Positions 2,206-4,687 of a DNA stretch of 56,440 bases are shown here, piece by piece (the stretch's first letter is position 1; each line of letters opens with the position of its first letter). Origin of the DNA: Woeseiaceae bacterium (GTDB lineage: Bacteria > Pseudomonadota > Gammaproteobacteria > Steroidobacterales > Woeseiaceae); assembly GCA_030066075.1 (NCBI GenBank), contig JASJCH010000023.1, forward strand, positions 1 through 56,440, given 5' to 3'. A model generated the notes under the pieces. It saw only the letters and a list, made by a program, of their open reading frames with translations, had not been told where the DNA came from and searched no databases. The position numbers were made by a program, and so were the translations under genes.

Positions 2206-2373
2206 ACACGTGCCAATATAAGCGACACCAGCCAAGCTCAACTATCGGGGATCACCCTTACATCGACCTCCTGGTACGAGCGCATGGACAATGAAGGCGC
2301 CCTTCCCGGGACGCAGTGAATTCTTTGAACTGGCCGCTTGACGTTCCCAGGACCGTATCCCACCATGTAATTC
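2206..2373. other. Intergenic stretch with no gene seen
   Basis: No plausible reading frame or RNA gene is visible between the tRNA-Val 5' end and the inverted repeat that opens the candidate retron RNA. Apart from the tRNA promoter it contains TTGACG at 2338-2343. If used as a -35 box with a 17-nt spacer, this would start transcription at about 2373, exactly where the a1 arm begins, but the matching -10 (CACCAT) is poor. Confidence 0.4.
2215..2241 (-). promoter_or_regulatory. Candidate sigma70 promoter of tRNA-Val
   Basis: On the minus strand TTGAGC (2241-2236) is followed after 15 nt by TATATT (2220-2215). The implied transcription start is about 2208, only a few bases ahead of the mature tRNA 5' end at 2205. 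The -35 box is a partial match and the spacer is short, so this is a moderate call. Confidence 0.4.
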
Positions 2374-2538
2374 GCAGCCAGTCTTCGAGTAGCTCTTTGA
2401 TTCGGTGAAGATCGAATCCGGGAGATCTCCGGGGATACCCCGGGGAGAAGTCATTACTTAGGCATTTCAGCTCCGGCACGCCGCTGCGCTTCGCGCAGTT
2501 TTGTACCGGAAATACGAGAATGGTCGGAGACTGGCTGC
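2374..2538 (+). ncRNA. Candidate retron msr-msd non-coding RNA
   Basis: The segment is closed by a 15-bp inverted repeat. The arm at 2374-2388 begins GCAGCCAGTC and pairs with 2524-2538, which ends GACTGGCTGC, with a single G.U pair. This is the a1/a2 stem that defines retron RNAs, and it lies directly before a retron-type reverse transcriptase. Just after a1 is TAGC (2390-2393), a plausible site for the priming guanosine (G2392). Inside are: a 6-bp hairpin GATTCG/CGAATC (2399-2404/2413-2418, 8-nt loop); a 9-bp hairpin with one G.U and an ATA loop (2426-2434/2438-2446); and a longer imperfect hairpin spanning about 2464-2513. The last is built from ATTT/AAAT, CCGG/CCGG and a perfect CTGCGC-TTC-GCGCAG tip, and would be the msd. 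Known: retron RTs copy such an msd into branched msDNA. Inferred: the msr/msd boundary and a product of roughly 60-75 nt. Confidence 0.65.
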
Positions 2539-3855
2539 ATGTTAACCAGCAGATCCACACAAGCACGGTGGCTCGCGCTTTCCCTCCTCTCGGGGAATTG
2601 GGATGAAGCGGGAATTGCTGATCGGCTGGCCCGAGCCTTGCCGCCGGACTTCGATGAACTCGCCAAGGTCTCCGCCAGGCTCCGCCTGCGGTTCGATAAA
2701 TCGTCACGGCCGGGCATCGACACGCTGGTCGATTACCTGCTTTCGGAATCCTTGCTCAACCCGGTGTTCGAGGGGTCGGCGATCAAAGGCCCGCTCCTGG
2801 ATTCGCCGACTATGGAGGCGACTCCTGGCTCGCTCGTCACGTTTCCACTGCCAGAGCTATCGACGTGGTCGGACGTTGCGGCCTGGCTGTCTCTTTCCGA
2901 CAAAGAGCTTGCCTGGTTCTCCGACGGCCGTTCGCAGCAGTCGAAGGTCACCGAGAGGAAACTGCACCACTACAGTTATTACTGGGTACCGAAACGATCG
3001 GGCTCGCTGCGACTCATCGAGGCCCCGAAATCGCGCCTCAAGGAGATTCAACGGAAGGTCCTCAATGAGATCCTGAACCGGGTTCCCCCGCACCCTTGTG
3101 CACATGGATTCAGTCGAGGACGATCGACCCGGAGCTACGCTGCGCCCCATACCGGGCAAGAGGCCGTTCTCAGGCTGGACCTGAAAGACTTCTTCCACTC
3201 GGTGCCCGTCGCTCGCGTTGGCGCGCTGTTCCGCCGCGTCGGTTACCCGACGAACGTGGCCTGGCTGCTGCAGGGTCTCTGCACAACGTCGGCTTCGCCC
3301 GCCCTGGCCGGGAAACCGTTCGAGGCGCTGTCGTGGGATGTGCGCAAACGGCTGGAGAGCAAACACCTGGCACAGGGCGCACCGACATCGGCCCAGCTGG
3401 CCAACCTGTGCGCGTGGCGGCTGGACTGCCGGCTCGACGGGTTGGCGAAACGATTTGGGCTGCAGTACACGCGGTACGCGGATGACATGGCGTTCTCCGG
3501 GCCGTACCGGCTGGCCCGGATGTCCGGATTTCTGGAAGCGCTGGCAGGGTCAATCGCGATTGACGAGGGATTTCGACTGAATCATCGCAAGACCCGCCTG
3601 CGTCTGGCGTCGCAGCGGCAGTGCCTGGCCGGTGTCGTCGTCAATGAAAAGCCGAATTGCCGGCGCGCGGATTGGGATCGACTCAAGGCCATTCTGCACA
3701 ATTGCGGCAAACACGGCCCTGAAAGCCAGAACGTCGAGGGCCATCCGAACTTCAGGGCGCATCTGCGCGGCCGCGTCGCCTACATATCCTGGTTGAGTCC
3801 ATCGCGCGGCCAGAAACTCCAGCGACTCTGGGACAAGATCGACTGGAACTCGTGA
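2539..3855 (+). CDS. Retron-type reverse transcriptase with N-terminal extension
   Basis: 438 residues. The catalytic core occupies about residues 145-438. Motif A is LRLDLKDFF (211-219), motif B is QGAPTSAQLANL (279-290) and the catalytic YADD is at 313-316 in TRYADDMAFS. The thumb-side region reads CLAGVVVNEKPN (362-373), where retron enzymes usually carry VTG followed by LVVN. Residues 1-140 form an extension with no motif I recognise. The layout, a solo RT with a long N-terminal region and the RNA directly upstream, recalls the myxobacterial Mx162-like retrons (from memory of the family, not a search). The ATG at 2539 is the first in the frame after the stop at 2398, and GGAG (2526-2529) is its ribosome-binding site, so the site lies inside the a2 arm. 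Group II intron maturase and DGR features were not seen. No effector gene follows: the next gene is on the other strand. Confidence 0.9.
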   Translation: MLTSRSTQARWLALSLLSGNWDEAGIADRLARALPPDFDELAKVSARLRLRFDKSSRPGIDTLVDYLLSESLLNPVFEGSAIKGPLLDSPTMEATPGSLVTFPLPELSTWSDVAAWLSLSDKELAWFSDGRSQQSKVTERKLHHYSYYWVPKRSGSLRLIEAPKSRLKEIQRKVLNEILNRVPPHPCAHGFSRGRSTRSYAAPHTGQEAVLRLDLKDFFHSVPVARVGALFRRVGYPTNVAWLLQGLCTTSASPALAGKPFEALSWDVRKRLESKHLAQGAPTSAQLANLCAWRLDCRLDGLAKRFGLQYTRYADDMAFSGPYRLARMSGFLEALAGSIAIDEGFRLNHRKTRLRLASQRQCLAGVVVNEKPNCRRADWDRLKAILHNCGKHGPESQNVEGHPNFRAHLRGRVAYISWLSPSRGQKLQRLWDKIDWNS

Positions 3856-3885: not shown

Positions 3886-4263
3886 CTAGAACTGATGGCC
3901 GCACTGCGGGCAGCGCTGGGTCGCTTTTTCGTCGGACCGGGTCAGAAACGGGCCATCGTCGCCGAACGAAAGAATGCGGACGCTGTCACCGGTGCGGAAC
4001 TCGCTTGCCTGGGCGACCGGCACATCGGACTCGCCGAATCTCACGAACTCGGACCCCGATACAACACCCACATCGCCAACCCTGAGGCGAACCAGCTTCA
4101 TCGCGCCGGTCTTGAAGACCAGTCCGGGTCCTTTGAACGCCATGAATCGTCCCAGCATGAATACCGCGAATCGCTCGTTCTCGTTCGCGATCTTGAGAGA
4201 CTGGTAGGCGAGAATCATCACCAGTAGCAGGACAATCGGAATTACGAAGTCGAAAGAGCCCAC
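3886..4263 (-). CDS. Small membrane protein with SPFH/NfeD-like segments and a C-terminal CxxC
   Basis: 125 residues. Residues 5-22 form one hydrophobic helix. They are followed by a stretch resembling the start of a stomatin/SPFH domain (ERFAVFMLGRF, then KGPGLVF), then a beta-rich part resembling the NfeD OB-fold (VGDVGVVSGSEF, FRTGDSVRIL), and finally CPQCGHQF at the very end, half of a zinc-ribbon. It is far too short for a full SPFH protein (usually over 250 residues), yet the frame is clean with no frameshift. It may act as a membrane scaffold partner; the function is unknown. It converges on the retron RT gene. Confidence 0.6.
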   Translation of the reverse strand: MGSFDFVIPIVLLLVMILAYQSLKIANENERFAVFMLGRFMAFKGPGLVFKTGAMKLVRLRVGDVGVVSGSEFVRFGESDVPVAQASEFRTGDSVRILSFGDDGPFLTRSDEKATQRCPQCGHQF

Positions 4264-4285: not shown

Positions 4286-4687
4286 CTATGCCTTCCCGAA
4301 TACCGCATCGATGAGCGCGGTATCCATGTATTCCCGCACTTCGGCGATCTTGCCATCGGCGATGCGAAGGACCTGGCAGTAGGTATTGTTATACGGCGTG
4401 CCGTCGTGCGTCTCGGCCTGCCCCAGGGTCAACGCGACCACCATGTCATCCTCGGCGATCAGCGCCTCGATGCTTGACGCGATGCCCGCTTTCAGCTGGC
4501 CGAACAAAGGTCCCAGCAATCCTTCCACGAGCGCCTGTTTACCCGTAAACGAACCGGAAAATCTCGTCGAACCGATGTTGGTCCAGATGACGTCGTCTGC
4601 TACCAGGCTGAAGCACGTATCGATATCGCCGCGCGCCCCGGCCTCGTAGAAGTCGATGACGACCTGCTTGTTCTCAACAATGCCCAT
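4286..4687 (-). CDS. NTF2-like / SnoaL-like protein
   Basis: 133 residues, the usual size of the cone-shaped NTF2-like fold: an N-terminal helix (NKQVVIDFYEAGARGDID), then DDVIWTNIGS, and an end strand with ADGKIAEVREYMDT, typical of SnoaL/ketosteroid-isomerase relatives. Members are small cyclases, isomerases or binding proteins; the substrate cannot be read from sequence. The AAGGAG ribosome-binding site overlaps the stop codon of the flavoprotein gene upstream (TAA at 4701-4699), so it is the last gene of a three-gene leftward operon with 4699-5958 and 5958-7295. Confidence 0.7.
   Translation of the reverse strand: MGIVENKQVVIDFYEAGARGDIDTCFSLVADDVIWTNIGSTRFSGSFTGKQALVEGLLGPLFGQLKAGIASSIEALIAEDDMVVALTLGQAETHDGTPYNNTYCQVLRIADGKIAEVREYMDTALIDAVFGKA

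Follow-up and report, generated by a model that had tools for sequence, protein, structure and literature searches.

A 1.5-kb stretch of a Woeseiaceae-like gammaproteobacterium very probably (roughly 0.92) holds a complete retron, with promoter, msr-msd RNA and reverse transcriptase (RT) in one unit of about that length. It lies in a window of 56,440 nucleotides, the whole stretch of DNA analyzed here, from a host genome of 2.6 Mb that is ~80% complete. The retron is of a known kind, since PADLOC already has protein models for its RT clade, RT_other. Rfam has no entry for the RNA of this clade, which now gains an RNA-defined retron together with a covariance model. The features recognized, all on the forward (+) strand, were:

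2338..2366, +, putative promoter: -35 TTGACG (2338-2343), 17-nt spacer, -10-like CACCAT (2361-2366)
2374..2388, +, a1 arm of the a1/a2 stem, GCAGCCAGTCTTCGA, 15 pairs with a2
2389, +, putative branching (priming) guanosine, directly 3' of a1, context CGAG/T
2393..2424, +, msr hairpin 1
2426..2446, +, msr hairpin 2, TCTCCGGGG-ATA-CCCCGGGGA
2462..2468, +, GCATTTC just 5' of the msd hairpin, partly conserved in the nine-copy alignment
2472..2510, +, msd hairpin (putative msDNA template)
2514..2523, +, ACGAGAATGG adjoining a2, conserved in the alignment of copies
2524..2538, +, a2 arm of the a1/a2 stem, TCGGAGACTGGCTGC, 15 pairs with a1, one G.U
2539..3855, +, retron RT, 438 aa, intact ORF, YADD at 3475-3486
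2545..2772, +, N-terminal five-helix module of the RT, residues 3-78 (AlphaFold2 models)

The msr-msd RNA and its conservation

The RNA of 165 nt directly upstream of the RT is closed by complementary a1 and a2 ends, as in retrons. A preliminary description of this DNA had reported a 15-bp inverted repeat with one G.U, and its coordinates were correct. On the plus strand of the 56-kb window, no other stem combined 15 or more pairs, no more than one G.U and a span of 120-260; shuffling the mononucleotides of 2279-2545 yielded such a stem in 0/2000 trials. The RNA (2370-2542) folded at -86.5 kcal/mol (z -6.9), a value that 0/200 dinucleotide shuffles equaled. As also described before, a2 abuts the RT start codon, ending at 2538 with the ATG at 2539. 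The three internal hairpins were recovered as well (2393-2424, 2426-2446 and 2472-2510); calling the msd-like one "long" was generous, because it has only ~15 pairs, with internal loops.

For covariation, nine gammaproteobacterial copies were aligned (the window, L013-L017, L078, L142 and L143). Left out were L002, which shares its contig position with L013, and L141, which has the same upstream sequence as L015. The window-derived structure of 52 pairs was paired in 89.7% of 465 cells, a percentage biased toward the structure because this was taken from one row, the window. Two-sided compensatory changes were found in 25 of the 52 pairs. When the partner was slid by 1-3 columns as a control, pairing in the nine copies fell to 31-46%, and none of 500 shuffles, which do not keep relatedness, reached any of five covariation measures. 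Thus, homologous RT genes keep the inverted repeat with compensatory changes, as the preliminary description had proposed to check, and the model matches in further loci reported below agree with this.

The a1/a2 stem had two-sided changes in 6/15 pairs, with 95.5% of cells paired. The corresponding values were 12/13 pairs and 79.5% for msr hairpin 1, and 6/15 pairs and 88.9% for the msd hairpin. The most conserved element was msr hairpin 2 (96.3% of cells paired), and a GGGG-nnn-CCCC hairpin was also present in the Burkholderia, Myxococcus and Labilithrix copies. RNAalifold predicted 47 pairs for the nine-copy alignment and 60 pairs for 13 Myxococcus-type copies plus Labilithrix, with two-sided changes in 20 pairs each. 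The element at 2514-2523 was ACnAGAnnGG-like in most gammaproteobacterial copies and GACnnGACAGG-like in the Myxococcus-type and Labilithrix copies; ACGAGAATGG would be the template for the 5' end of the msDNA. The GCATTTC at 2462-2468 is a possible zone for the end of reverse transcription.

A GGAG inside a2 (2526-2529) may double as the ribosome-binding site of the RT. Because it lies within a2, closure of the RNA and translation of the RT may compete. This overlap is not general, because in L015-L017 the RT match begins ~50-75 nt after a2.

At the end of a1, A2388-G2389 was invariant in 9/9 copies, giving a guanosine at the inner a1 end in the AG context usual for retrons. An AG directly after a1 was also found in L022, L033 and L136-L139. 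In the Myxococcus-type copies the stem continues, with an interruption, before the motif, which is mostly CCCAGC. According to the review PMC6868368, the priming G lies at or just past the inner a1 end of retrons, mostly as TAGC, and also as CAGA, CAGC, GAGC or ACGC. The preliminary description had pointed to a TAGC inside a1 as the priming site. This TAGC is indeed present (2390-2393, +), and it was conserved in only 1/9 copies. Its G2392 is itself invariant (9/9), and TAGC is the commonest priming motif among characterized retrons (PMC6868368). The two bases 5' of G2392 vary, however (TA, AA, TT, TA, CA, TC, TC, CA, CC), with AG kept in 5/9 copies. Because the AG ending a1 is kept throughout and TAGC is not, and given where PMC6868368 places the priming G, G2389 is the likelier branch guanosine, and priming at G2392 seems rather unlikely.

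Upstream of a1, all nine gammaproteobacterial copies had TTGACn, a spacer of 17-18 nt and an nAnnnT box, 6-9 nt 5' of a1. The box was CAnnAT-like in these copies, with TAGATT in L143. The stricter pattern TTGACn-N16-18-CAnnnT fitted 8/9 copies and was found in 37 of 20,000 random 60-mers of the window. A generic sigma-70 scan called no promoter at 2338-2366, where the -10 box is poor. From this site, the transcript would start about where a1 begins.

A covariance model, R1, was built from the nine gammaproteobacterial copies; its E-values are rough. The first run covered 50 sources out of 169 loci plus the window. In 23 of them R1 matched directly upstream of the RT (E 3e-16 to 2e-3): the nine used for building and 14 unused loci (L018-L025, L033, L034 and L136-L139). 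Another 11 rows were partial or antisense matches within the same RNAs. The other 27 sources gave no match (ten were later typed as RT_XIII or as other groups, the rest are untyped), including L026, even though L026 and the matched L034 have syntenic flanks. In the second run, of 34 loci, R1 matched Labilithrix and each of the 13 copies of the window type from the genus of Myxococcus sp. CA023. L020 and L018, two of these 14 matches, were counted in both runs. The 20 remaining loci of the second run carry other RTs, among them L205-L207, scanned as RT_XIII, and gave 0 matches. The R1-matched loci span Pseudomonadota, Myxococcota, Actinomycetota and Verrucomicrobiota.

The comparison with known RNA families suggested by the preliminary description came out negative: Rfam 15 (4227 families) gave no match to 2300-2600 up to E 10, and with gathering scores applied, the retron RNAs of the window and of ten relatives went unmatched too. 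Therefore, the msr-msd RNA is not in that library. We found no description of the clade's RNA in the accessible parts of PMC6868368, PMC8934634, PMC12548924, PMC9252829, PMC8867640 and PMC12262390.

The reverse transcriptase, its class and its N-terminal module

The ORF had been recognized beforehand as a retron-type RT, and profiles, fold and tree bear this out. The top three PADLOC models were RT_other (483.8 bits, 1.8e-145), RT_outgroup (460) and RT_XIII (312.6). RT_other matched residues 5-437 and RT_outgroup residues 6-436, thus including the N-terminal part. Pfam RVT_1 matched with 3.3e-20. Among NCBIfam models, the retron models scored 160-178 bits, below their cut-offs, and the DRT2 and group II models 31-32 bits. 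Region X, usually NAxxH, is YAAPH here, and LAG stands in place of the VTG triplet; His204 and Gly365 were invariant in 25/25 rows of the RT alignment. Known retrons with substitutions in region X and in the VTG triplet are described in PMC6868368.

The sequence matches in the PDB were retron RTs. In a PDB fold search with the AlphaFold2 model of the RT (pLDDT 91.0), the top 18 chains were all from retron RTs, with group II, DRT2 and DRT9 chains ranking lower. The best solved structure was Retron-Eco1 (Ec86, type II-A), with a TM-score of 0.81-0.82 by the Ec86 chain and 0.59 by the query. Ec86 differs in having a separate effector and a shorter RT chain (309-314 residues), and is 26-27% identical to the window RT.

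In a tree of 34 RTs, 18 RT_other-type rows formed one group (support 99/98). Ten type XIII rows grouped as its sister (90/93), and two group II RTs fell far outside. The RT thus groups with retron RTs and away from the two group II intron RTs, the outcome by which the preliminary description had asked its phylogeny to be judged. The ten XIII rows, the window, L020, L136 and L139 took their labels from PADLOC scans; the remaining RT_other rows took theirs from similarity and, where it was found, from the RNA. RT_other or RT_outgroup was also the best PADLOC model for L020, L034, L136 and L139. The viral RTs L093, L095 and L097, which had RT_XIII as best model, and the unscanned L005 were given no group in the tree; their long branches arise basally in the joint RT_other and XIII group or outside it. 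The extent of type XIII is thus unsure; if they are counted as XIII, type XIII is not one group.

On sequence evidence, the window RT belongs to the PADLOC RT_other/outgroup clade (PDLC02949, PDLC03740), a likeness seen at the level of protein models, and this clade is sister to type XIII. It does not appear to be a type XIII member itself, its best profile being RT_other and not RT_XIII and the two forming separate tree groups. Type XIII RTs are also N-extended. Over the RT domain, the window RT was 41% identical to the type XIII RT of L206 and 37% to that of L207, whereas the N-terminal parts gave no BLASTP alignment beyond chance with either.

The five-helix module at the N-terminus, modeled alone, had a pLDDT of 89.5. 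Between it and the RT runs a connecting stretch, part of which is a linker of low confidence (residues 90-99). A Pfam search with the N-terminal module of 14 members gave no match (best E 0.085). The module residues invariant in eight RT alignment rows were G19, W21, F52 and L63, none of them catalytic-looking. With no Pfam match and no catalytic-looking invariant residue, the module is unlikely to be an enzyme; our guess is that it binds RNA, makes oligomer contacts or docks a host protein. Retrons with one protein, an RNA and no separate partner also occur as PADLOC RT-Toprim_I-C, RT-Protease_XI and RT-TIR_XII. In these the fused part is a known enzyme domain and sits C-terminally, whereas the extra part of the window RT is a small bundle of helices at the N-terminus that no Pfam family matched.

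Proposed mechanism, function and alternatives

We infer priming at G2389, msDNA production, msDNA length and activity of the locus from the sequence. One transcript, starting near a1, would be both template and RT message. The a1/a2 stem would close the RNA and expose a guanosine, most likely G2389, whose 2'-OH would prime the RT. The RT would then copy leftwards from ~2523 across the msd hairpin and halt in the zone before msr hairpin 2. The predicted product is a branched RNA-DNA with an msDNA of ~60-75 nt.

As described in PMC12548924, in characterized defence retrons a complex of RT, RNA and RT-DNA restrains an effector until a phage trigger. We surveyed 23 RT loci for recurrent neighbors (ORFs no shorter than 60 aa and no more than 5 kb away, BLASTP 1e-6). 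Some loci had short flanks (L068 lacked an upstream flank altogether), and genes below this size would escape the survey. No family occurred in more than 2/23 loci, and most recurrences were syntenic pairs from close relatives. Thus, no linked effector was found, and the 23 loci surveyed lack the linked effector gene of the tripartite defence retrons by this measure. A PADLOC scan of the two neighbor proteins of the RT gave 0 matches. Since no effector was found nearby, the effector may be unlinked, the N-terminal module may serve as one, or the clade may have another role. Phage defence, with an effector that is unlinked or is the N-terminal RT module, is tentatively the likeliest role.

We weighed two other readings of the locus. 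The retron-type RT and structured RNA could be a decaying or silent relic that makes no msDNA. The patchy occurrence, in 2/73 genomes of the genus, would fit this, as would the existence of broken RT relatives (an in-frame TAG in L142, and similarity lost past ~residue 212 in L078). The window ORF, however, is intact with a catalytic YADD, and its RNA, promoter-like site and stem resemble those of the other copies, which makes a relic very unlikely. Some DRT systems consist of a stand-alone RT and an ncRNA without an effector gene, a composition similar to that of this locus. A DRT-like or group II-derived RT could use the RNA in a non-retron way, with no 2'-5' priming. Against this stand the scores of the DRT2 and group II models, only 31-32 bits, the rank of group II, DRT2 and DRT9 chains below 18 retron chains in the fold comparison, and the a1/a2 and msr/msd anatomy, which is that of a retron. 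We consider this reading even more improbable than a relic.

Within the reading as a complete retron, a further-reaching proposal can be made, which we regard as doubtful. RT_other could be a separate old retron class found in four phyla or more (Pseudomonadota, Myxococcota, Actinomycetota and Verrucomicrobiota), with its own RNA family and no effector gene, in which RT and msDNA act alone and the five-helix module is a built-in effector, sensor or docking site. If true, the biology of RT_other would fall outside the usual three-part retron scheme. With no linked effector found across the clade, the question of what such retrons do alone becomes testable. In addition, the compact one-gene unit with its 165-nt RNA would be a candidate ssDNA maker for genome editing.

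Genomic context and distribution

The genes flanking the retron were all on the reverse (-) strand:

781-2079, -, Cys/Met-metabolism PLP enzyme gene
2130-2205, -, tRNA-Val(CAC)
3886-4263, -, gene of a 125-aa protein
4286-4687, -, gene of a SnoaL-like protein

The first 60 residues of the 125-aa protein resembled part of longer frames, mostly of ~250-310 aa, which were found in most genomes of the genus. Near full-length relatives of this protein were found only in two genomes (G024 and G026) among the matches listed.

Insertion at tRNA-Val(CAC) was considered and rejected: the retron is on the 5' side of the tRNA rather than at the 3' end, and we could read no clean empty site. Two genomes, G034 (L216) and G059 (L222), had the same tRNA with a SnoaL-like gene nearby, inverted, and without the retron RT. 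For 29 relatives' loci that carry the neighboring PLP-enzyme gene, the stretch examined contained no tRNA.

The nearest relative of the RT was in a Woeseiaceae MAG (L013, 72% identity), followed by a Chromatiales MAG (69%), three more gammaproteobacterial MAGs (53-57%), Massilia (47%, partial), Labilithrix (45%) and Myxococcus (41%). RT matches below E 1e-140 were found in 4/369 genomes of the class, the host genome included. Within the genus the RNA was patchy: under strict filters, by which weak copies may be lost, R1 found it in 2/73 genomes (G000 and G021), both times at the RT, and no orphan copies.

Carriage by mobile elements was also looked into and discarded. The 36 phage records with a match did not reach 80% coverage, the 43 viral contigs were at most 34% identical, and the 127 plasmid records were all below 60% identity, the best being from Burkholderia (43-49%).

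Myxococcus sp. CA023 had three RTs, one of the window type (L020) and two, of 427 and 485 aa, that fitted RT_XIII (L206 and L207). Judging by RT lengths, the latter two are probably the Mx65 and Mx162 types. RT matches were found in 27/27 genomes of this genus, up to four per genome, and the window type in 13/27 (L203, L238-L249), beside other retron-like RTs. Subsets of the 13 window-type loci had flanks in common, with seven alike on the upstream side, an indication that the retron was inherited in place in these cases.

Several relatives deserve mention on their own account. The window-type RT of L142 (G543:C9:5422-6726) has one in-frame TAG, while its RNA and promoter-like site look intact; it may have become a pseudogene recently, or the TAG may be an error of the assembly. 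In L078 (4241-5275) the RT frame is dissimilar to its relatives past ~residue 212, and the upstream RNA is well kept. Two MAGs assigned to two verrucomicrobial families (L023 and L024) have near-identical RTs (end branches 0.025 and 0.002) and both flanks in common, pointing to either a recent transfer or a mis-assigned MAG. A Lokiarchaeota MAG (L084, 6001-7011) encodes a retron RT with RT_XIII as best model and a Clostridium RT as tree neighbor. In L207 of Myxococcus sp. CA023, a hairpin with a 21-bp stem (881-968), as expected for a long msd stem, precedes the gene of the 485-aa RT; R1 had no match to it.
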